64,000 nucleotides of DNA from Nitrospirota bacterium (GTDB lineage Bacteria > Nitrospirota > Thermodesulfovibrionia > Thermodesulfovibrionales > UBA6898): positions 1 through 64,000 of the forward strand of contig JACRLO010000038.1 in the NCBI GenBank assembly GCA_016235245.1. The letters are read 5' to 3'. Below, piece by piece: positions 520 to 12,996 of this stretch (within the stretch, counting starts at the first letter, position 1; every line of letters begins with the position of its first letter). The notes below the pieces were generated by a model. The model was not told where the DNA came from. It saw nothing but the letters and a program-made list of their open reading frames with translations, and searched no databases. Position numbers and translations under genes: made by a program.

Positions 520-3198
520 TTACGTTGCTGATACAGCTGCGGTAATGATCTGCACTGCACAGACCTTCAGTTCCGGTATCTTTACCTGGGGATCGAGGGC
601 ATCGTTGGTGAGTACATTGGCAGCAGCCTCCCGGTAATGCATAGGGATGAAAACTGTTCCTTCCGACACCCTTGGGGTTGTCCGCGCCTTAATGGCAATC
701 TCGCCTCTGCGTGACCGCACCTTGATAATATCTCCGTCGCTGATTCCAAGGTTCCTGCTGTCAAAGGGATTTATTTCCACATATGGTTCACCGGCATGAG
801 ACTCTATCGGCTCAACGCGCCGCGTCATGGAGCCGGAATGATACTGAAACAGATTGCGCCCTGTTGTCAGGACAAATGGATATTCTTTATCACAAACCTC
901 TGCAGGCGGCTGATATGAAACAGGCACAAAGGGAACTTTGCCCTTAGGGAATCCCTCTTTATAAAGATAGGGTGTGCCTGGGTGGTCTGTTGCAGGGCAG
1001 GGCCAGCAGAGACCGCGCTTTTCAAGTCGTGCATAGGATATGCCGGCGATTGCAGGCCATAGCTTACGGTATTCGTCAAATATTTTTTCGGATGATTTTT
1101 CCATGTCAAGGCCGAGCCGTTTCGAAATCTCTGCAATGATCCATAAATCATCCTTTGCCTCGCCAGGCGGATTGACTGCCTTGCGTATCCTCTGGACTCT
1201 CCGTTCAGTATTGGTGAAGGTGCCATTTTTTTCGAACGAACAGCCCGCCGGCAGCACTACCTCTGCAAGCTTTGCCGTATCAGTCAAAAAAATGTCCTGG
1301 ACTACCAGAAAATCGAGGCGTTCCAGCGCGTTGATCGTGTGATGCATGTTCGGGTCCGTGATGATCGGGTTTTCCCCCATGATGTACAGGGCCTTGAGGT
1401 TGCCTGCCGCAGCTTCATTCATCATCACGGTCGCCATCATGCCGACGTTGGGAGAAAGAGGAACTCCCCAGGCCTGTTCGAATTTTGTCCTGATCTCAGG
1501 ATCATCGACTTTCTGATATCCCGGATAGACATTTGGCATGCAGGCTGCATCGGAGGAGCCCTGAACATTATTCTGGCCCCGCAGCGGATTGATGCCGGTG
1601 AATTCCCTGCCGATATTGCCGGTAAGGGAAACAAGATTGGCAAGGGCTGTTACATTGTCAGTGCCACAGGTATGCTGCGTGATCCCCATGGTGTAGAAGA
1701 CCCCTGCTTTGCGCGATGCCCCATACACCCGGGCTGCCCTGATGATGTCATCCTTTGGGACGCCGGTGATCTTTTCGGCATAGTCAGGGGTAAAGGTCTC
1801 GATAGACTTTTTCCACGCAGCGAATCCTTCGGTTTTATCTTTTATAAATTCTTCGTTCTGAAGTCCTTCGCTCACGATAACATTTGCCATGCTGTTGAGG
1901 AGTGCAATATCAGAGCCCGGCCGTATCTGAAGGTGAATATCAGCGAACTTCACCATCGGGATTTTTCTCGGGTCTGCAACAATAATCTTTGCGCCGTTTC
2001 GATAGGCCTTGATCATGCGGTTTGCGATGACAGGGTGCGTTTCCTTGGTATTGGAGCCGATGATAAAGATCACCTCCATGCCTTCGATCTCCAGGATAGA
2101 GTTCGTCATTGCCCCTGAACCGAATATTTTGGCCAGACCGGCCACCGTGGGGGAGTGTCAAAGTCGGGCGCAGTGATCTACGTTATTGGTGCCGATGCCT
2201 GCCCTGATGAGTTTCTGGAATGCATAGTTCTCCTCATTGGTGCAGCGTGCAGAGGAAAGGCCTGCAATGGCATCAGCGCCGTGCTCTGCCTTTATTTCTG
2301 AGAGCCGCTTTGCAACGTGATCAAGGGCCTCGGGCCATGAGGCCTCTTCGAAGACGCCGTGCCTCTTTATCAGCGGCTGGGTCAGACGCTCCGGGCTGTT
2401 CACAAACCGGTATCCGAACCTCCCCTTGACGCAGAGCCAGCCTTCGTTCCATGTCGCCGCTTTTGCGGTAATTTTAAGGATCTCGTTATCTTTGACATGT
2501 GCCGTGATATTGCAGCCGGTGCCGCAATACGGGCAGACTGTATCCACTTCTGCCTGATGGTCTTTCCTGCCTTTATTCTTCCAGAGCCTGCCGGTGAGCG
2601 CCCCGGTAGGGCAGACGCTGACGCACTGGCCGCAGAACTCGCAGTCGAGATCCTGCTCATAGCTCGTACATATCTTGGAATTAAAACCGCGGTACCCAAA
2701 GTCGATTGCCTCAACACCCTGAATTTCATCACAGACCTTTACGCACCGGCCGCAGAGGATGCATTTTTCGAGGTCCCTTTCTATGAACGGGTTGCCGTCG
2801 CGCTTGGCATACACTCTTCTCTCTCCCTGATAGCGGTTCTCTCTGATGCCGTACTCATAGGCAAGATTCTGAAGTGTGCAGTCGCCTGCTTTTTCGCAGA
2901 TCATGCAGTCATTGGGGTGGTCAGAGAGGATAAGTTCCAGAACAGTCTTTCTCAATTCCTGCAGGTTTGGACTTGAGGTCGTAATCTCCATGCCATTGTT
3001 CACGACAGTGGTGCATGAGGTGACCGGTTTCGGCATGCCTTTTACTTCGACGATGCAGAGCCTGCAGCCGCCAAAGGGCGTAAGCTTGGGATGATGGCAG
3101 AGTGTCGGTATGGGAATGTTGAGGAGCTTTGCTGCCTGCAGTATCGTGGCAGAGTCAGCCACTTCAATCGTTTTGCCATCAATCGTGATCCTTGCCAT
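520..3198 (-). CDS. fdhA: Formate dehydrogenase alpha subunit, selenocysteine-containing (copy 1)
   Basis: Oxidises formate to CO2 (or the reverse) at a molybdenum/tungsten bis-pterin site. The reading frame runs through a TGA at 2158-2160 into a second open stretch, giving 892 residues with Sec at position 347. The context HCARL-Sec-HSPTVAGL is the FdhF/FdhA active-site motif, so this is recoding and not a broken gene. Domain order: NuoG-like [2Fe-2S] (about 1-80), His/Cys cluster HPNDCMICEKAGDC, two ferredoxin-type [4Fe-4S] motifs (CILCGRC, CEFCGQC), the CPYCGTGC cluster, then the molybdopterin catalytic and C-terminal pterin-binding domains. The start lies 4 bp after the upstream NuoF-like gene. 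It is last in a three-gene operon like fdsGBA of Rhodobacter. No fdhD or sel genes are seen in the window. Confidence 0.95.
2130..2160 (-). promoter_or_regulatory. Sec UGA codon and bacterial SECIS hairpin of fdhA copy 1
   Basis: UGA is at 2160-2158. Eighteen bases downstream TGGCC (2144-2140), loop GGTCT (2139-2135) and GGCCA (2134-2130) form a perfect 5-bp apical stem. The GGUCU loop and the spacing are those of the E. coli fdhF SECIS that binds SelB. Confidence 0.92.
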
Positions 3199-3202
3199 AT
3201 GC

Positions 3203-4984
3203 TTAATCCCTTCCTACAGACTTGAACTTGCACGCCTCGAAGCAGGCGCCGCATCTGACGCATTTTGCCGGGTCTATCCTGTGGGGCTGTTTCTTTTCTC
3301 CGGTGATCGCTCCTGCAGGGCATGCCCTGAGGCAGGCGCCGCACCCTTTGCATGCAGCTTCAATGACGCAATAGGTTATCAGGTCCTTGCAGTCCTTTGC
3401 AGGACATTTTTTATCCCGGATATGGGCTGCGAACTCATCCCTGAAATATTTCAGCGTGCTCAGCACGGGATTGGGGGCAGTCTGTCCGAGGCCGCAGAGC
3501 GCGGTGACCTTGATGCTGTTGCTCAGGGTCTCAAGCAGTTCAAGGTCGCTCTCCTTGCCTTGCCCTTTGGTTATCCGCTCCATGATCTCGAGAAGCCGCT
3601 TGGTGCCAATCCTGCATGGAACGCACTTGCCGCAGGATTCTTCCTGGGTGAACTGGATAAAGTACTTTGCCATATTCACCATGCAGTTGTCTTCGTCAAG
3701 GACTATCATTCCTCCTGAGCCGACGATTGACCCGACCCTGGCGAGCGATTCATAATCGACATTGATATCAAGCATATGAGCAGGAATGCAGCCGCCTGAG
3801 GGGCCGCCTGTCTGGACTGCCTTCAGCTTCTTGCCTCCTTCGATGCCTCCGCCGATATCCTCGATGATCTCCCGCAGCGTGATCCCCATCGGCACTTCGA
3901 TCAGTCCCGGGTTTTTGATCTTGCCGGTCAGGGCAAAGACCTTTGTCCCTCTCGAGCGTTCTGTTCCATGTGACGCGTACCACCGATAGCCCCTTCTCAT
4001 GATATAGGGAACATTGGCGAGGGTTTCGACGTTATTGATGACCGTAGGACGCTGCCACAATCCCTTGTTGACCGGGAACGGCGGCTTGGCTCTGGGCATG
4101 CCGCGCTGGCCTTCGATCGAGGCTATGAGCGCTGTCTCTTCGCCGCAGACAAATGCACCTGCACCGAGTTTGACCTGTATGTCAAAGTCAAAGGTTGTCC
4201 CAAAGATGTTCTTGCCGAGGAAGTGGCGTCGTCTTGCCCTGTCTATGGCGAGCCTCAGACGCTCGACTGCCAGGGGATATTCAGCCCGGATATAGACGTA
4301 CCCGTGATGGGCGCCGATGGCATAGGCCGCAATGATCATCCCCTCAATGACCGCATGGGGATTTCCCTCAATGACCGCGCGGTCCATAAATGCACCGGGG
4401 TCGCCCTCATCAGCATTGCAGACGATATATTTAATATCGCCGCGGGCCTTGCGTCCCAGTTCCCACTTGAGCCCGGTAGGGAATCCTGCGCCGCCGCGGC
4501 CTCTCAGTCCCGATGCCTTGATCTCCTCGATAACTTCATCCGGCAGCCACTCAGTCAGCACGTCACGGGCAGTCCCGTATCCTCCGACTGCATGATAGTC
4601 ATCAGGGTCCTCAGGATCAATCTTCCCGCAGTCAGATAGAACGATTTTGACCTGCTTGTGATGAAAGTTCTCGTAGTCTCTGCCGACCCGCCATTCGGCG
4701 ACAGGGGTTTTGCCGATAAGATGCTCCTGGACAATTCTCGGAACCATGTCGGGCTTGATGAACTGGTAGGTGGTTATTGTGCCGTCTGTCAGAACATCGA
4801 CAAGCACATCTTTGGCACAGAGCCCACGGCAGCCGACACGATGGGCCAAACAATGCTCTTTGACCACTGCCGGAAGCGCTGCGGCCTCAAGCTCAGTACG
4901 AAATGCCTGCAGGACTTCGGCACCCCCGGATGCCATACCGCCCGTACCCATGCAGACATTTATAACGGTCTTATTTTTCGTCAT
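3203..4984 (-). CDS. fdsB: NuoF-like diaphorase subunit of formate dehydrogenase (copy 1)
   Basis: Passes electrons between FdhA iron-sulfur clusters and NAD(P) through FMN. 593 residues: N-terminal thioredoxin-fold [2Fe-2S] region with VGCRGLCAKDVLVDV, then the NuoF core with the FMN motif GRGGAGFPTGLKW, the canonical CNADEGDPGAF...EGNPH segment and GAGAFVCGEETAL. The N3-type cluster ligands are CGKCVPC with a later CGLG. The C-terminus adds two [4Fe-4S] ferredoxin motifs (CKGCGACLRAC, CVRCGACFEAC), as in NADP-reducing hydrogenase and FdsB/HylB proteins. It overlaps the NuoE-like gene by 14 bp and is followed by fdhA after 4 bp. All key motifs are intact, so it probably is a working NAD(P)H site. 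Confidence 0.93.
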   Translation of the reverse strand: MTKNKTVINVCMGTGGMASGGAEVLQAFRTELEAAALPAVVKEHCLAHRVGCRGLCAKDVLVDVLTDGTITTYQFIKPDMVPRIVQEHLIGKTPVAEWRVGRDYENFHHKQVKIVLSDCGKIDPEDPDDYHAVGGYGTARDVLTEWLPDEVIEEIKASGLRGRGGAGFPTGLKWELGRKARGDIKYIVCNADEGDPGAFMDRAVIEGNPHAVIEGMIIAAYAIGAHHGYVYIRAEYPLAVERLRLAIDRARRRHFLGKNIFGTTFDFDIQVKLGAGAFVCGEETALIASIEGQRGMPRAKPPFPVNKGLWQRPTVINNVETLANVPYIMRRGYRWYASHGTERSRGTKVFALTGKIKNPGLIEVPMGITLREIIEDIGGGIEGGKKLKAVQTGGPSGGCIPAHMLDINVDYESLARVGSIVGSGGMIVLDEDNCMVNMAKYFIQFTQEESCGKCVPCRIGTKRLLEIMERITKGQGKESDLELLETLSNSIKVTALCGLGQTAPNPVLSTLKYFRDEFAAHIRDKKCPAKDCKDLITYCVIEAACKGCGACLRACPAGAITGEKKQPHRIDPAKCVRCGACFEACKFKSVGRD

Positions 4985-5444
4985 AGGAGGGGGCTTTCAG
5001 TGCACGGAGTTCCTTCAGGATCTTGTCTGTGACTGCTTTGCCGTGGACCTTTTTGTCCACAATGAGAACCGGTGCAATACTGCAGGCCCCAACGCAGTTT
5101 ACCTGCTCGAGGGTGAACTCACTGTCTTGTGTGGTGTCTTCGCCCGGTTCAAGTTTCAGCTCGAGCCTGAGGCTGTTGAGGATGCGGTCTGACCCGCGGA
5201 CATGACAGGCGGTTCCGCAACAGGCAGTTATCTTATGCCTGCCTGGCGGCCTCATGCGGAACTGGGCATAAAAGGTTACAACTCCGAAGAAGCGGCTTGG
5301 CGCAATGCCGAGGGTCTGGGAGAAGTAGTCTATTGCCTCTCTTGGTATGTACCCGAAGACTTCCTGCGTATCCTGCAGAAGAGAGACCACATTCCCCTCG
5401 TTCTGCCGGTATTGCTGCGCTATGGTTTTAAATGTTTCTATCAT
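4971..5444 (-). CDS. fdsG: NuoE-like [2Fe-2S] subunit of formate dehydrogenase (copy 1)
   Basis: 157-residue thioredoxin-fold [2Fe-2S] protein that partners the NuoF-like subunit. The ligands are visible as CCGTACH in the middle and NCVGACSIAP further on, the usual C-x4-C and C-x3-C pattern of NuoE/HoxE/FdsG. The N-terminal helical part has the family motif GYIPREAIDYFSQTLGI. It is first in the operon. The stop overlaps the start of the NuoF-like gene, implying coupled translation. The ATG at 5444 has only a weak ribosome site. A 17-bp palindrome lies 19 bp upstream. Confidence 0.92.
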   Translation of the reverse strand: MIETFKTIAQQYRQNEGNVVSLLQDTQEVFGYIPREAIDYFSQTLGIAPSRFFGVVTFYAQFRMRPPGRHKITACCGTACHVRGSDRILNSLRLELKLEPGEDTTQDSEFTLEQVNCVGACSIAPVLIVDKKVHGKAVTDKILKELRALKAPSYDEK

Positions 5445-5462: not shown

Positions 5463-5479
5463 TATGATAAGTTATCATA
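5463..5479. promoter_or_regulatory. 17-bp perfect palindrome, likely operator
   Basis: TATGATAA (5463-5470), G, TTATCATA (5472-5479) is a perfect inverted repeat just upstream of the copy-1 operon start at 5444. A TATAAA-like -10 lies between it and the gene on the minus strand. It resembles a CRP/FNR-type dyad in overall form, but the half-site spacing is not that of a standard FNR box. The regulator is unknown. Confidence 0.5.
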
Positions 5480-5576: not shown

Positions 5577-5604
5577 GCAGGGCCGGGAAATGTTCCGGCC
5601 CTGC
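5577..5604. terminator. Strong hairpin after the CBS gene, possible terminator
   Basis: GCAGGGCCGG (5577-5586), loop GAAATGTT, CCGGCCCTGC (5595-5604): a perfect 10-bp GC-rich stem 22 bp past the CBS-protein stop codon. Neither side has a clear T tract. It may be an RNA 3'-end stabiliser or an atypical terminator separating the two formate dehydrogenase modules. Confidence 0.5.
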
Positions 5605-5625: not shown

Positions 5626-6057
5626 TTAATATCCTGCGATATAATCCTTGAGATAGTGGATCTCGGTGGTCATTTTGTGGACCTGGGACAGAACGATATC
5701 CCTGATCGAGAGCATGCCGATCACTTTTCCTTTGTCAACAACAGGGAGATGGCGGATGTTCTTTTCGACCATGACAGCCATGACGCTGTTGAGGTCGTCG
5801 CTGAGTTCTGCGACCATGAGATTTTTTGTCATGTTTTCGCTTACCGGGATATCGTGGAACCTTCTGTCACGCTTGCCGATGTAGCAGCGGACGACATCGC
5901 GCTCCGTGAAGATCCCTGCAGTGCCGTCTTTTTCGGTAATGATGATCGCGCTGATCTTTTTGCTGTCCATAAACCGGATCGCATCCTCCACGCTGCTAGA
6001 TGCGTCCATCGAAAAGACCTCTTTCCCCTTTGTCTCGAGCAGTTCCTTGACTTTCAT
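5626..6057 (-). CDS. CBS-domain pair protein
   Basis: 143 residues made almost only of two CBS motifs: about 8-62 (IRFMDSKKISAIIITEKDGTAGIFTERDVV) and 78-130 (NIRHLPVVDKGKVIGMLSIRDIV). Such Bateman modules bind adenosine nucleotides or SAM and act as energy sensors. No catalytic or DNA-binding domain is attached. It has a good ribosome site (GGAGG). It lies 68 bp downstream of the cyclic-nucleotide-fold gene and in the same direction as both formate dehydrogenase modules, so a role in tuning formate metabolism is an inference from position only. Confidence 0.88.
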   Translation of the reverse strand: MKVKELLETKGKEVFSMDASSSVEDAIRFMDSKKISAIIITEKDGTAGIFTERDVVRCYIGKRDRRFHDIPVSENMTKNLMVAELSDDLNSVMAVMVEKNIRHLPVVDKGKVIGMLSIRDIVLSQVHKMTTEIHYLKDYIAGY

Positions 6058-6125
6058 TTTCCTATCCTCCTTGGGTTTAATACGGTCGCCCGGGACACCC
6101 CCAGGGACTGTGCAGATTTTCTGTC

Positions 6126-6581
6126 CTAATAATTCACCAGTGCCTTCAGGAATTTCTCATTCATGCGCCGTACATTGAGGGCCGAGACGATCGCAATATT
6201 TTTTATGATCTTAAGCATGATCTGAGGCTGTGTTTTTTCCAGTTCTTCATATGCCTCCTTGGGAAACAGGATAAGCTCTGCATGATCGAGAGCCCTCGCG
6301 TCCGTAGCGTGGTCTGATTTTTCAAGGGTGGCTATCTCACCGAGGAAGTTCCCGGGGCTCAGGATTACAAGCGGCTGCTTCCATCCGTCTGTTGTGGTCT
6401 TGGATATCTCTATCCTTCCGCTCCTGATCATATGTATGCCTTTGCATATGCCCTTCTCCCGGAAGACATGCTCGTCCTTGAGAAGTCTAATCATGGATAC
6501 CATAGGCCGGAGTATTTCAAGCTCCGAATTATCGAGACCTTCCAGCAATACCTGAGGCATTAACTCCTGCACTGACATCAT
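6126..6581 (-). CDS. Cyclic nucleotide-binding-fold protein (CRP sensor domain only)
   Basis: 151 residues with one cAMP-binding-type beta barrel (about 20-135): the segments GICKGIHMIRSGRIEI and LSPGNFLGEIATLEKSDHATDARALDHAELILF match the CRP/EPAC fold, including the PGNFLGEIA phosphate-binding-cassette-like loop. There is no helix-turn-helix, so it cannot be a CRP regulator by itself. The start is 1 bp after the fdhA copy-2 stop, and its ribosome site AAGGAG lies inside the fdhA 3' end, so it is co-translated with the dehydrogenase. The ligand is unknown. Confidence 0.88.
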   Translation of the reverse strand: MMSVQELMPQVLLEGLDNSELEILRPMVSMIRLLKDEHVFREKGICKGIHMIRSGRIEISKTTTDGWKQPLVILSPGNFLGEIATLEKSDHATDARALDHAELILFPKEAYEELEKTQPQIMLKIIKNIAIVSALNVRRMNEKFLKALVNY

Positions 6582-6582
6582 C

Positions 6583-9288
6583 TTATTCTCCTTCCCTGAC
6601 AGGTTCTACCCTGACCGCGGTGATCTTGAATCCGGGTGTTTTTGAAATCGAGTCGATACGGGTATCGCTCGTCAGCATGTTTACGGCAGCCTCGGCATAA
6701 TGCATGGGAATGAAGACAGTTCCCGGGCTTACCCGGTCCGTGATTCTGGCCTTTATCACAATACTCCCCTGTGAAGATGAGACTTTTGAGCGCCCGTTAT
6801 CGCCGATCGAGAGCCGTACTGCATCATCGGGATGTATTTCAATATACGCCTCTCCTGCATGGTTTTCAAGAGGCTGAACCCTGCGCGTCATGGAGCCGAA
6901 GTGATACTGAAAAAGATTTCTTCCCGTATTGAGGATGAAGGGATACTCCGGGTCAATCCGTTCTTTCTGCGTTTCAAAGGCTGCAGGGGTGAAGATTGCC
7001 CTTCCCCGGGGAAATCCGCCTTTATAGAGATACTCGGTTCCCGGATGGTTCTTGGTAGGGCAGGGCCACTGTATGCCCCGCGATTCGATCCTTGTATAGC
7101 TAATGCCCTCAAGCGCCGGCCAGAGACTGCCGAGTTCCTCAAACACGCCCTCAGGAGAACTGCAATTCATTTCATATCCCATTCTTCGGGAAAGTTCTGC
7201 AATGACCCAGGAATCGTCCCTTGCCTGCCCCGGTGCTGCGAGTGCCTTTCTTACCCGCTGCACCCTTCTTTCCGTATTGATAAAGGTGCCGTATTTTTCA
7301 GCAAAACAGGAAGAGGGGAAGACCACGTCTGCGAGCCTGCCTGTCTCTGTCAGAAAGATGTCCTGAACAATAAGCAGTTCGAGCGCCTCAAACCCTTTCT
7401 TTGTATGGCTGACATTGGCATCGCCAAGCACAGGGTTTTCACCCATCACATACGCAGCCCTGATGCTGCCTTCGATGGCCCTGTGCGGGATTTCGGAAGC
7501 GGCAATACCAGGTGCGGCTGAAAGCGGCCTTCCCCATGTTTCCTCAAACTTCTCCTGAATTTCGGAGATGCCGACCCTCTGATACCCGGGAAATACATTC
7601 GGCAGACAGCCTGCATCGCAGGCGCCCTGCACGTTGTTCTGGCCGCGCAGTGCATTAATACCCGTGAACTCCCTGCCGATATTTCCTGTCAGAAGTGCAA
7701 GGTTTGCGATCGCGTTTACATTTGCTGTCCCGTTTACATGCTGTGTAATACCCATCCCGTAATAGATTGCAGCCTTCCTTGATCCGCCATAGAGCCGTGC
7801 TGCCTCTATGATCTTTTCTCTGGGCACTCCGGTGATCTTTTCTCCGGCCTCAGGCGTGAACTCCTCTACGCTCTTCTTCCAGACGTCAAATTGACGGGTC
7901 TGGGCCTCGATGAAGTCGCTGTTGTGCAGCCCCTCTGCAAGAATAACATGGCTGATACTGTTGAGGAGCGCGATGTCAGTTCCGGGCCTCTGCCTGAGCC
8001 ATATCCCGGCAAAGCGGCACATGGCCAACTTCCGCGGGTCAGCGACAATGATCTTCGCTCCTCTTCTGTGCGCCCTGATCATGGCGTTTGCTATGACCGG
8101 GTGGGCTTCCTTGGTGTTTGACCCGATGATGAAGATCACTTCGTTGCCTTCGATTTCGCGGATCGAATTGGTCATTGCCCCAGAACCGAAGATGGTGGCC
8201 AGACTGGCCACCGTGGCGGCGTGTCAAAGCCGGGCGCAGTGGTCGACATTGTTCGTGCCGACTGCCGCGCGCATGAACTTCTGAAAAAGGTAATTCTCTT
8301 CAGTCGTGCAGCGCGCAGAAGAAAGCCCGGTAATGGCATCAGGACCATGCGCTTCTTTGATCTTTTTTAATCTATCTGCAGCATAATCCAGGGCCTCTTC
8401 CCATGACGCAGTCTGAAGCCTGCCGTCTTTTCTGATGAGCGGCTGCTTAAGTCTGTCAGGGCTTGATACAAAACTGTACCCGAACCTGCCTTTTACGCAG
8501 AGCAGCCCCTTGTTCACAACACTGTCCGGCCGTGAAGAGACCCTGATGATCTCATTGTTCTTCACGTGAAGCGTAATGCTGCAGCCGACGCCGCAGTACG
8601 AGCAGGTGGTGTCTACCTCCCGTATCTTCCAGTATCTTCCTTTGCCGATCCAGTCCCTGCCGACAAGGGCGCCGGTCGGACATGCCATAACGCACTGGCC
8701 GCAGAACTCGCAGTCGAGGTCCCGCTCAAACGGAGGGCATACCTTGGTGCCGAAGCCCTTGTATGCGAAATCGATCGCTCCTACGCCCTGGACCTCATCG
8801 CAGATCTTTACACACCGTCCGCAGAGGATGCACTTTTCCATGTCGCGCTCTATGAAACGGTTGCCGTCCTTCTTGTCATATATTCTTCGCTCCCCGCTGA
8901 AGAGGGGCTTCCTGATATTGTATGAATAGGCAAGCTCCTGCAGTTCACACTCGCCGGTCTTCTGACAGACCATGCAGTCGTAGGGGTGGTCGCTCAGGAT
9001 CAGGTCAATGGTGTCCCTCCTGAGGTCTTCAATGTAGGGAGAATTCGTGATGACTTCCATATCCTTTTCGACCAGGGTGGTGCAGGACGTTACCGGGGTC
9101 CCATTCACCTCAACGATGCAGACCCTGCATGCGCCAGACTGGCTGATCATCGGGTGGTTGCAGAGCGCCGGGATATAGATGCCGATCTCCTTTGCTGCCT
9201 CGAGAATCGTTCTGCCTTTGGTGACATCAACGACCTGGCTGTTGATCCTGAGCCTGACGGTTTTCTCTATTTTTCTGTTCATACTCAT
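6583..9288 (-). CDS. fdhA: Formate dehydrogenase alpha subunit, selenocysteine-containing (copy 2)
   Basis: A 901-residue paralogue of the first FdhA with Sec at residue 355, encoded by the TGA at 8224-8226 in the context HCARL-Sec-HAATVASL. Domain order is the same: NuoG-like [2Fe-2S], HPYDCMVCQKTGEC cluster, two ferredoxin-type [4Fe-4S] motifs (CILCGRC, CEFCGQC), CSYCGVGC cluster, molybdopterin catalytic domain and C-terminal pterin domain. It differs from copy 1 over most of its length, so the duplication is old, not a recent tandem copy. Its ATG overlaps the stop of the NuoF-like gene (ATGA). It is followed directly by the cyclic-nucleotide-fold and CBS genes, which copy 1 lacks. Confidence 0.94.
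8194..8226 (-). promoter_or_regulatory. Sec UGA codon and bacterial SECIS hairpin of fdhA copy 2
   Basis: UGA is at 8226-8224. GGTGGCC (8212-8206), loop AGTCT (8205-8201) and GGCCACC (8200-8194) give a perfect 7-bp stem with 18 bases from UGA to the loop, the same distance as in copy 1. The loop starts with A instead of G but keeps GUCU. Confidence 0.88.
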
Positions 9289-11051
9289 TGTTTTCTGATC
9301 GCCTTGAACTTGCAGGCCTTATAACAGGCCCCGCACTTTATGCAGGCAGCCGCATCGATCCGGTGCGACTTCTTCACCTCTCCGGAGACAGCCCCTGCAG
9401 GGCAGACCTTTTTGCAGAGCGTGCAGCCCTTGCATTTGTCTTCAAGAATAGAAAACGTTATCAGCGCGGTGCAGACGCCGGCAGGACATCTCTTCTCTTT
9501 AATATGCGCCAGGTACTCGTCGCGGAAATGGTTCAGCCCGGTGATGAACGGGTTCGAAGCGCTCCTGCCGAGGCCGCAGAGAGATGAGGTCTTCATCAGG
9601 CCGCTTAACCGTTCCAGTGTTGCAAGATCGTTATATTCAGCCATGCCTTCGGTGATCTTTGTGAGCAGTTCAAGCATTCTTTTTGTGCCGATCCTGCAGG
9701 GTGGACATTTGCCACAGGATTCCCTTTGCAGAAATTCCATAAAGAACTTTGTGATCGAGACGATGCAGTCGTCTTCGTTGAAGACAACCATGCCGCCCGA
9801 GCCGACGATGCTTCCGATCTTCGAGAGATTTTCGTAGTCAAGTCCAATGTCGAGCATCGCGGCAGGGATAAGGCCGCCTGAAGGGCCGCCGACCTGTACT
9901 GCCTTCAGTGCCCGCTCACCTTCCATGCCGCCGCCGATGCCATACACAATATCCCGGAACGGCATGCCCATTGGGATCTCGACCAGTCCGACATTCTTCA
10001 CCTTGCCCGACAGGGTAAAGACCTTCGTGCCGGTGCTCTCTTTTGTCCCGATGGACGAGAACCAGCGCGCACCTTTGCCGATGATAAGCGGAATGTTCGA
10101 AAAGGTCTCGGCATTATTGATAACCGTCGGTTTTCCCCAGAGCCCTTTCTGCACAGGGAAGGGCGGTCTGACCCTCGGCATGGCCCTCTTGCCCTCGATC
10201 GATTCCATCAGCGCGGTCTCCTCGCCGCAGATGAAGGCCTCTGTCCCGAAACTGAACTCAATATCAAAACTGAAATCCGTGCCGAAGATGTTCCTGCCGA
10301 TGAACCCCTTATCCTTTGCCTGGGCAATCGCACGCCTGAGCCGTTCAACAGACAGATGGTACCGCTCCCGTATATAGATGAACCCTTTTTCCGACCCGAT
10401 CGCGTAGCCGCCGATCAGGAGGCCTTCAATAATGGCGTGCGGGTTGCCTTCAGCCAGCGGCCTGTTCACCTCGCCCACATTGCAGATGATGTATTTCGTC
10501 TGATCAGGCTGGGCCTTGCAGATCTCCCATTTTGTGCCTGTCGAGAAGCCGCTTCCGCCTCTTCCCCTGAGCCCTGACTGGATGACCTTCTTTATCACTT
10601 CATCACGCCTCATCTTCGAGATCGCCTTTTGTGCGGCCCGGTAACCCTTCATGCCGAGGTAGTCATCAATGCTCTCCGGGTCTATCTCGCCGCACGGACC
10701 GAGTACAATCTTATGCTGTCTGCTCTGAAAGGATTCGTAATCTTCTTTGGTGAGCCATTCGGCAACAGGTGTCCCTTCAAGGATATGTTCGGTTACAATC
10801 CGCTCGACCATGGTCGGCTTGACAGACTGATAGGTAACCTTCTGGTTGTTCATGATGACGTCGACGAGCACGTCCTTGGAACAGAAGCCTCTGCAGCCGA
10901 CTCCCGTATAGCTGCACTTCTTATTGATCTGCGCTTCAATGCCGTTCAGTTGAATAAGCTTCTGAAAAATACTCAGAACGTCTGCGCCCCCGGATGCTTT
11001 TCCTGAAGTGCCGAGACAGACCTTTATCGCAATTGTTTGTGGTTCAGTCAT
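9285..11051 (-). CDS. fdsB: NuoF-like subunit with degenerate FMN/NADH site (copy 2)
   Basis: Same layout as copy 1: N-terminal [2Fe-2S] region (VGCRGFCSKDVLVDV), NuoF core, CGKCPPC...CGLG cluster and C-terminal double [4Fe-4S] ferredoxin (CKGCTLCKKVC, CIKCGACYKAC). The nucleotide site has changed. The canonical CNADEGDPGAFMDR segment is replaced by CNVGEVNRP with a net loss of six residues. GAGAxxCGEET has become GTEAFICGEET, and GRGGAGFPTG has become GRGGSGFSTG. All iron-sulfur ligands are kept and the gene is otherwise intact, so it is not decaying. The likely start is the ATG at 11051, which overlaps the NuoE-like stop. It may still carry electrons but probably does not use NADH in the normal way. 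Confidence 0.92.
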   Translation of the reverse strand: MTEPQTIAIKVCLGTSGKASGGADVLSIFQKLIQLNGIEAQINKKCSYTGVGCRGFCSKDVLVDVIMNNQKVTYQSVKPTMVERIVTEHILEGTPVAEWLTKEDYESFQSRQHKIVLGPCGEIDPESIDDYLGMKGYRAAQKAISKMRRDEVIKKVIQSGLRGRGGSGFSTGTKWEICKAQPDQTKYIICNVGEVNRPLAEGNPHAIIEGLLIGGYAIGSEKGFIYIRERYHLSVERLRRAIAQAKDKGFIGRNIFGTDFSFDIEFSFGTEAFICGEETALMESIEGKRAMPRVRPPFPVQKGLWGKPTVINNAETFSNIPLIIGKGARWFSSIGTKESTGTKVFTLSGKVKNVGLVEIPMGMPFRDIVYGIGGGMEGERALKAVQVGGPSGGLIPAAMLDIGLDYENLSKIGSIVGSGGMVVFNEDDCIVSITKFFMEFLQRESCGKCPPCRIGTKRMLELLTKITEGMAEYNDLATLERLSGLMKTSSLCGLGRSASNPFITGLNHFRDEYLAHIKEKRCPAGVCTALITFSILEDKCKGCTLCKKVCPAGAVSGEVKKSHRIDAAACIKCGACYKACKFKAIRKQ

Positions 11052-11535
11052 ATTCAAAGCCTGTATATTCGCCTTCCTGTTCGAAGCCTTTCACCAGTTT
11101 CACCACCTGTTCCGCATCCATGTTGCCATATACCTGATTATTCAGGATAGCAACAGGAGCAATGCTGCAGGCCCCGATACAGGTGGCATTCTGGACGGTA
11201 AAGGAGAGGTCCCCGGTGGTGTCTTCTCCTTTGCCGAGACTGAGCGCTGATCTGACTTTTTCAAGGATTTTATCCGCGCCTTTTATGTGGCAGGCAGCAC
11301 CGCAACATACGGTTATGGTGTTTTTGCCGGTCGGTTTAAGATGGAACTGGGAATAGAAGGTGGCTATGCCGAAGAATCTGCTTTCCGGGATATCGAGCTT
11401 TTTGGAAAACCAGCCGACTGCTTCCTCGGGAAGATAGCCGAATGCCGCCTCTGTCTGCTGAAGCAGCGTAATAAGGGTACCCTTCGACTTCATATGAGTG
11501 TCGAGAATGGCTTTGAGTTTATGTTCCATGATCAT
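11044..11535 (-). CDS. fdsG: NuoE-like [2Fe-2S] subunit of formate dehydrogenase (copy 2)
   Basis: About 163 residues, first gene of the second formate dehydrogenase module. [2Fe-2S] ligands appear as CCGAACH and TCIGACSIAP; the family motif GYLPEEAVGWFSKKLDI is present. The frame is open up to 11586, but a TATAAT sequence at 11592-11597 puts the likely RNA start near 11585. The ATG at 11535 (or 11529) is therefore the better start and also matches the N-terminus of copy 1. It overlaps the NuoF-like gene by a few bases. Confidence 0.9.
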   Translation of the reverse strand: MIMEHKLKAILDTHMKSKGTLITLLQQTEAAFGYLPEEAVGWFSKKLDIPESRFFGIATFYSQFHLKPTGKNTITVCCGAACHIKGADKILEKVRSALSLGKGEDTTGDLSFTVQNATCIGACSIAPVAILNNQVYGNMDAEQVVKLVKGFEQEGEYTGFEYD

Positions 11536-11591
11536 GATTAACTTGATATTTCGGCCTTCCGGCGTCAGAAGGTCCTGTAAGCGCACGAATT

Positions 11592-11597: not shown

Positions 11598-11718
11598 CCT
11601 GCTGCAGTTCCCCGTCAGTTATTTAAAATTGCAATACGATTATTTGCATTGCAGGCAGAGGCCTGCGGTGCCGTTTATTCCAAAATGCTCCCGCAATATT
11701 TTATACTGGTACCCGGAC

Positions 11719-12996
11719 ATGAAAAAAATAGGCGGCGACATCAGTCTCATGCCCCTGCCGGACCTGCTGCAATGGGCAGAGACAAGCAAAAAATCAGGCA
11801 CGCTCTCTGTCACATTCCAGGGTGCGAGCAAGGCCTTCTATCTTCAGGACGGGAAAATGATCTTCATTTCGTCCCAGAAAGAAGGGGAGCGCCTTGGGGA
11901 ATTCTTTATGAAAAGCGGCCGTCTTGCGCCGGGACAGATTGAACAGGGTCTCCGGGAGAGCCAGCGTCTCGGGTGTCCGTTTACCGGGTATCTGATCGAT
12001 CAGGGGATCATTGATAAGCAAACACTGGAACAGACTCTCCAGAACCTTGCTGAAACAGCTTTTTCGGATACCCTGACCTGGGAGGGCGGTTTGTTTGAGT
12101 TTTCGGATACCATTCCACCGCTTATTCTTGACGGTCCGATTAAGCTCAATACTTCATTTGTCGTCTTTCAGTCGGTCAAAATATTTGATGAGACTCGCAG
12201 GGATAAGGTCGGAGAAGGACCGACGGTTGGCGATATCATAAAGCAGATCGCAAATAATATCGCGCAGGGAAACATTGAGCTCCCCCCCGTGCCTGATATC
12301 ATGACGAAGCTTAACGCTGCCATGACAAAGGACGATATCTCTGTCCATGACATTGTAAAAATTCTGATGGCCGACCAGATACTCACATCAAAAATCCTCC
12401 GGGTGGTAAATTCGGCCTTTTACAGCCCTTCACGCGAGATAACATCGCTTCAGCAGGCCATTATTTTTATGGGCCTTAAGTCGGTTCTGAGCATTGTGAC
12501 GGTGCATACCCTCAGCAGCATCAGCCCCGCCGCTGCAGACGAGGTGAAGGAGATCCTGCGGCATAGTCTGCTCTGCGCATTTGTTGCCAAAAAGATAGCC
12601 ATTGCCCTGCGGCTGGATCCTGAGGAGGCGTTTGTCTGCGGCCTGCTCCATGACATCGGCAAGACCGTTATCCTTAACCTGCTAACAGACAAGAAAGTGA
12701 CTGACGAGGTTAAGCGGGAGCTTCTCAGGGGATATCATCCGCATGTGGGATATATACTCGGCAGCAGATGGCATTTCTCGGAAGTGATCAAAAACACCAT
12801 CAAATATCACCATGCCCCGCAGGAAGCTCCTGCAAACAAGAAGCTGATCGAAACGGTCTATGTGGCCAATGTCATTGCCAACGGGCAGGATGTTATGGAT
12901 ACGGTGCATAACTGCAGCAACCTTGATTTTGACAAGATCAACGAGATCCTGAGCGACATTGACAATATCAAAGATTCAGTCATCGCGATCATCTGA
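11719..12996 (+). CDS. DUF4388-HDOD domain signalling protein
   Basis: About 425 residues if started at the ATG at 11719 (MKKIGGDISLM), which begins the DUF4388/PATAN domain. The frame extends upstream to 11629 but that part has no domain character. Residues about 5-150 are DUF4388 (LPDLLQWAETSKKSGTLSV, FYLQDGKMIFIS). Residues about 180-420 are HDOD (ELPPVPDIMTKLNAAM, LLHDIGKTVILNLL), a catalytically inert relative of HD phosphohydrolases common in regulators of motility and c-di-GMP signalling. The HD motif is present as HDIGK. There is no clear ribosome site. A -10-like TATACT at 11702-11707 suggests a very short leader. Confidence 0.85.
   Translation: MKKIGGDISLMPLPDLLQWAETSKKSGTLSVTFQGASKAFYLQDGKMIFISSQKEGERLGEFFMKSGRLAPGQIEQGLRESQRLGCPFTGYLIDQGIIDKQTLEQTLQNLAETAFSDTLTWEGGLFEFSDTIPPLILDGPIKLNTSFVVFQSVKIFDETRRDKVGEGPTVGDIIKQIANNIAQGNIELPPVPDIMTKLNAAMTKDDISVHDIVKILMADQILTSKILRVVNSAFYSPSREITSLQQAIIFMGLKSVLSIVTVHTLSSISPAAADEVKEILRHSLLCAFVAKKIAIALRLDPEEAFVCGLLHDIGKTVILNLLTDKKVTDEVKRELLRGYHPHVGYILGSRWHFSEVIKNTIKYHHAPQEAPANKKLIETVYVANVIANGQDVMDTVHNCSNLDFDKINEILSDIDNIKDSVIAII

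Follow-up and report, generated by a model that had tools for sequence, protein, structure and literature searches.

In transcription factors, kinases and channels, a fused cyclic nucleotide-binding (CNB) domain is a familiar type of switch. The 64,000-nucleotide stretch of Nitrospirota DNA analysed here (the window; contig C38 of a 3.25-Mb genome that is 96% complete) carries a gene for a CNB domain and nothing else, placed at the end of a formate dehydrogenase (FDH) operon and followed by a gene for a pair of CBS domains, which raises the question of what a CNB protein free of any effector would do beside this enzyme. According to the original prediction, the two proteins may be subunits that tune the dehydrogenase by nucleotide level instead of acting at DNA. 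In the literature searched, outside which most subscription journals lie, no paper was found that places a CNB gene in FDH or nuo operons.

The genes in question all lie on the minus strand, in the order nuoE1, nuoF1, fdhA1, CNB, CBS, nuoE2, nuoF2, fdhA2, and form two tandem FDH operons. Copy 1 comprises nuoE (11044..11586; PF01257), a HydB-like nuoF (9285..11057), fdhA (6583..9288), which encodes a NuoG-like N-terminus and a formate dehydrogenase with an in-frame UGA (8224-8226) read as Sec, and, as its last gene judging by orthologue synteny, the CNB-only gene (6126..6581; 151 aa). The CBS-pair gene (5626..6057; 143 aa) precedes copy 2, which spans 5444 to 520 downstream of copy 1 and consists of nuoE (4971..5444; PF01257), nuoF (3203..4984) and fdhA (520..3198; in-frame UGA at 2158-2160), with no CNB gene after fdhA in the remaining 519 bases of the window. 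With UGA taken as Sec, the FdhA proteins score 839.5 bits (copy 1) and 885.4 bits (copy 2) against the equivalog TIGR01591 (cut-off 666.25), and in both copies nuoE, nuoF and fdhA are consecutive. Sec decoding rests on the position of the UGA and on the equivalog score, because the best SelB match in the same genome (contig C24, 38801-39679; first 265 positions) reaches 181.8 bits, below the family cut-off of 242.25. The best matches of NuoF are HydB-like chains, and those of FdhA are NAD-linked FdhA. NuoF copy 1 reads CNVGEVNRPLAEGNPH in place of the NADEGDPGAFMDR loop, which is canonical in copy 2; the CNVGEVNRPLAEGNPH type recurs in 11 other retrieved loci, and the altered loop may reflect a different nucleotide specificity. 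The formate-THF ligase gene (fhs) of this genome lies on another contig, and a gene for a DUF4388-HDOD signalling protein (11629-12996) is divergent from the FDH operon.

The CNB gene is tightly joined to fdhA copy 1. Its start at 6581 lies one base past the fdhA stop (6583-6585), and its ribosome site, AAGGAG (about 6588-6593, minus strand), falls within the final fdhA codons, just as originally described. That neither protein has an effector domain is likewise borne out, since the only Pfam domains found are one PF00027 match, covering residues 32-114 of the 151-residue CNB protein (E 3.3e-16), and two PF00571 matches in the CBS protein (E 1.4e-21). The AlphaFold2 model, built with 71 orthologues as input, has a pLDDT of 94.7 and predicts a CRP-type beta-roll followed by a 31-residue C-helix (119-149). 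It thus has the N-terminal CNB fold of CRP/FNR proteins and lacks their C-terminal winged-helix HTH: Pfam gives no HTH match, no orthologue in the alignment has one, and full-length orthologues stop after the C-helix. Fifteen columns are invariant across the 71 orthologues, including Thr63, Asp65, Trp67, Gln69, Gly81, Glu82, His91 and the final Tyr151, which means strong purifying selection.

Glu82 (codon 6336..6338, minus strand), the ribose-contact Glu of the phosphate-binding cassette, and Trp67 (codon 6381..6383, minus strand), in the beta4-beta5 hairpin motif TxDGWxQ, are each kept in 73/73 orthologues. The ribose-binding Gly-Glu of cAMP- and cGMP-binding CNBs is present as Gly81 and Glu82. 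The cyclic-phosphate Arg is absent: position 91 (codon 6309..6311, minus strand), which is Arg in cAMP-binding CNBs and corresponds to that residue in the alignment with 4ev0 and 5kbf, is His in all 73 orthologues from the same order. Among 44 further sequences, 35 have His and nine Arg, the nine being the complex I relatives described below; the CNB paralogues of the source genome, as aligned, have Arg in four of five cases. A pocket that retains the ribose Glu and has an invariant His suggests that any ligand is probably a different ribose-bearing or a redox-linked small molecule rather than cAMP or cGMP.

The association with fdhA extends across a large group of Nitrospirota. In 150 genomes, 72 besides the source genome have an orthologue of at least 97 bits (the next match scores 61 bits), and all 72 loci (L034-L105) were retrieved for gene order. 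The gene immediately 5′ of CNB, on the same strand, is fdhA in 70 of them, and in the other two only 114 and 131 bases of contig precede the gene. A further phylum sample of 295 genomes gave additional loci, of which 40 were retrieved; 16 of these (L159-L174), with 17 CNBs, share the fdhA-CNB order. The resulting FDH-type set, with the window, counts 90 CNBs; in three, little or no sequence precedes the gene, and in the remaining 87/87 CNB directly follows fdhA (82 strict FdhA matches and five with FdhA in pieces, truncated at a contig end or frameshifted). The intergenic gap, taken over 86 of these loci, has a median of 44.5 bases, with 32 gaps of at most 20 bases and five overlaps; between the window and a relative of the same genus, the CNB proteins are 83% identical. 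Chance is excluded as the cause of this adjacency, and from gene order a functional tie between CNB and formate dehydrogenase is very well supported.

On the other side of CNB, fhs (NF010032, 1099 bits in one locus, L045) lies directly downstream in 76 of the 80 testable cases. Of the 14 CNBs without it, ten lie on sequence that ends within 0.95 kb and four truly lack it at that place, namely those of the window, L034, L035 and the first copy in L163. In the last of these loci (genome G196), the unit nuoE-nuoF-fdhA-CNB occurs twice in tandem, with fhs behind the second; the two FdhAs come from different clades, each has its own CNB, and the first resembles that of the window. Nine fdhA-fhs operons without CNB between the two genes were also retrieved (L148-L156), so the CNB gene is dispensable to the enzyme.

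The CBS gene proved to belong elsewhere. It has its own ribosome site (AAGGAGG, 6066-6072), starts 68 bases past the CNB stop and encodes two CBS motifs and nothing else, that is, a stand-alone Bateman module. A survey of 61 genomes gave 17 loci with at least 59% identity over at least 141 residues (an extra match in genome G001, 60% over 122 residues, was left out), and in 13 of the 17 the gene lies directly 5′ of an FDH on the same strand, before nuoE2-nuoF2 in nine and before an FdhF-type gene in four. It does not precede an FDH in G012, where 1.06 kb remains to the contig end, in G042 or in G052, and in G001 it shares a contig with an fdhA without adjoining it. CNB and CBS occupy separate loci in ten of the genomes compared, among others: CNB accompanies copy 1-type fdhA-(fhs) operons, and CBS accompanies copy 2-type or FdhF-type operons. 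Because CNB sits at a different FDH locus in so many genomes, their proximity in the window is a chance meeting of two operons, and we rejected both a functional CNB-CBS pair and a split CNB-CBS protein. Nor do the genes form a CNB-CBS-nucleotidyltransferase chain, as they are two separate ORFs with no nucleotidyltransferase; a chain of that kind occurs, by reading of the sequence, on contig C21 of the same genome. The survey of other fdhA operons that the original prediction had proposed as its own refutation therefore ties each gene to FDH (87/87 and 13/17) and dissolves the pair.

Between the CBS stop and nuoE copy 2 lie a 10-bp GC-rich hairpin without a T-tract (5577..5603, minus strand) and a palindrome, TATGATAAcTTATCATA (5463-5479), that overlaps a promoter-like match, which suggests that transcription of the CBS gene may be separate from that of FDH copy 2. 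Palindrome- or hairpin-like features in the same interval are visible in some relatives. The CBS pair would be a second, independent regulator, ahead of FDH copy 2.

For the CNB protein, we favour, at a probability of roughly 0.55, a role dedicated to the Wood-Ljungdahl FDH: it would regulate the enzyme at the protein level, form one of its subunits or take part in its assembly, and would sense something other than cAMP. In this scheme, the NuoE-NuoF-FdhA formate dehydrogenase would supply formate to the formate-THF ligase in Nitrospirota. From there on we infer the steps: the CNB protein would most likely dimerize through its long C-helix, contact either FdhA or the electron-input part that resembles NuoG/NuoF, and control the enzyme there, allosterically or as a regulatory subunit, a role in assembly being less likely, with both the ligand and the direction of control belonging to the same conditional part of the scheme. 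Action on protein rather than on DNA, as in the original prediction, suits the CNB protein better, since none of the aligned orthologues has an HTH and a relative is found inside a complex I operon; tuning by cAMP fares worse, as set out below.

Sequence coupling agrees with gene order in tying CNB to the enzyme. In 70 complete sets, the partial correlation of CNB distances with those of FdhA given NuoF is 0.46 and with those of NuoF given FdhA 0.37, each reached by 0/500 permutations. The CNB-less members of a tree of 119 FdhA sequences fall within groups that carry CNB (10 Fitch changes compared with a shuffled mean of 22), which makes repeated loss of CNB likely, several deep nodes of this tree being weakly supported. 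Position 745 of FdhA, in the loop WPCP-T-x-x-HPGT, is Thr in 79/79 proteins with CNB downstream and 8/8 of the f15 loci described below, compared with 7/21 CNB-less ones; five of seven CNB-less lineages deviate, where the maximum over 300 random draws of seven lineages with CNB was four, and a CNB-less f15-like locus, L158, also has Thr. As a single column picked post hoc, this is a hint of a link to CNB and no proof. A scan for docking sites by conservation loss returned Thr745 and a weak Arg761 in FdhA and one column of 24 in NuoE; a NuoF site was rejected as noise, since most of NuoF is missing from one lineage (L151). Synteny alone is no proof of contact between CNB and FDH.

CNB relatives in other gene orders bear on how dedicated this role would be. 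In another family, f15, the order is nuoE-nuoF-CNB-fdhA in 8/8 loci, with nuoE off the contig in one of them and no fhs detected in those retrieved. In the family f26, a CNB-only gene separates nuoG from nuoH of complex I in 9/9 loci; the neighbours NuoG, NuoD and NuoH were identified, and NuoG passes the NuoG cut-off but not that of FdhA. These complex I CNBs keep the canonical cassette Arg, and the two loci with genes listed show no fhs beside them. His-type CNBs also occur away from FDH genes: in f35, followed by a MoaA-like gene in 3/3 loci (one a confirmed MoaA); in f36, at one locus; and in f3, at three loci, as two tandem CNBs of ~175 aa each with a 23-24-residue insertion ahead of the hairpin, while the f3 fdhA-fhs operons L154 and L155 carry no CNB. 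Against a dedicated FDH role we therefore count the CNB-less fdhA-fhs operons, the nested CNB-less lineages and the His-type CNBs off FDH, as well as the Arg of the complex I relatives, whose pocket may differ, and the fact that the closest folds are CRP-type. A broader role is possible, though considerably less probable, in which stand-alone CNBs would serve as a general regulatory subunit of NuoEFG-type heads, Arg-type in complex I and His-type with a non-cyclic ligand in FDH.

FDH operons elsewhere carry assembly and maturation factors, and the CNB protein could be a private, chaperone-like factor of this kind for the Sec/molybdopterin FdhA rather than a regulator of the completed enzyme. 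The invariant hairpin Trp and C-terminal Tyr resemble a protein-contact surface, and the moaA-like neighbour in f35 would fit. We nevertheless regard this role as doubtful, given that the NuoG of the operon served by the complex I relative is only a distant homologue of FdhA, that the invariance of the pocket residues Gly81 and Glu82 suggests ligand sensing, and that some fdhA-fhs operons manage without the gene.

Somewhat more doubtful still is the view of the CNB protein as a soluble sensor working through another partner, such as a transcription factor, a kinase or Fhs, with co-expression as its only link to fdhA. Its frequent position between fdhA and fhs makes Fhs an equally possible partner, and f3, f35 and f36 show that it can reside off fdh genes; on the other hand, the f15 order nuoF-CNB-fdhA places the gene amid those of the enzyme itself, with no fhs detected in the retrieved loci, the genus of the window and the first copy of L163 keep it with fdhA although fhs is not directly downstream, and the listed complex I loci have no adjacent fhs.

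Were the CNB protein instead to bind cAMP, as its CRP/PKA-like predicted fold might suggest, it would report global cAMP to the enzyme. A class III cyclase is found in 57/73 genomes with CNB; it is found as well in 57/77 without, so that cyclase presence is unlinked to CNB presence and we rejected a dependence on class III adenylate cyclase. Tuning by cAMP is unlikely because the Arg-to-His change is universal (73/73) and 16/73 CNB-bearing genomes have no match to a class III cyclase, the one class examined; as a full account of the protein, we hold cAMP reporting to be very improbable. In the trypanosome PKA regulatory subunit, a nucleoside rather than cAMP is bound where the cassette Arg is lost and a second residue altered (PMC10959531); this also speaks against cAMP, and, since the second residue differs, it is a precedent by analogy and not evidence for the ligand here.

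That the protein is a decayed, functionless CRP-type regulator, a notion prompted by its likeness to the N-terminal half of CRP without the HTH and by an HTH-like in-frame read-through beyond the CNB stop in the window, is in practice refuted by conservation: the read-through was rejected as a source of an HTH because it is not conserved in orthologues, the same Tyr ends 70 of the 72 orthologue ORFs examined (contig ends cut the other two), and the 15 invariant columns speak for purifying selection.

If the favoured reading holds, a free CNB protein tied to the first CO2-fixation enzyme would give formate/CO2 conversion a new point of control, and many proteins of these operons annotated as 'cyclic nucleotide-binding' would sense no cyclic nucleotides. 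If the protein serves NuoEFG-type heads in general, carbon fixation would be coupled to nucleotide or redox state without transcription.

Among known systems, the CRP/FNR regulators GlxR (4cyd) and Mycobacterium tuberculosis CRP (4a2u) match the whole CNB model in beta-roll, phosphate cassette and long C-helix (Z 19.0-19.4; Foldseek E about 1e-10), whereas the Nitrospirota protein differs in having no HTH, a cassette His for Arg and a location in an enzyme operon. Similar structural scores are obtained with two stand-alone CNBs of unknown role in the PDB, 3gyd (Mfla_1926; Z 19.4) and 3mdp (Gmet_1532; Z 18.7), whose entries show no effector domain and which are 13-14% identical to the Nitrospirota CNB. 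The trypanosome PKA regulatory subunit, in which polar residues replace the cassette Arg and the ligand is a purine nucleoside (PMC10959531), is a eukaryotic kinase subunit with a second Glu (E311), where the present CNB family has Ser or Ala. The HydB-like NuoF and NAD-linked type FdhA of the window place the enzyme close to the NAD-linked and bifurcating complexes of the NuoEF/HydBC type (7q4v, 8oh5, 6tg9), among whose listed chains no CNB-annotated one was seen. The CBS pair, in turn, aligns over nearly its whole chain, and at similar length, with the stand-alone CBS pairs 3fhm (ATU1752), 4fry and 2rc3 (E 6e-22 to 8e-19), from which it is set apart by its link to FDH genes.
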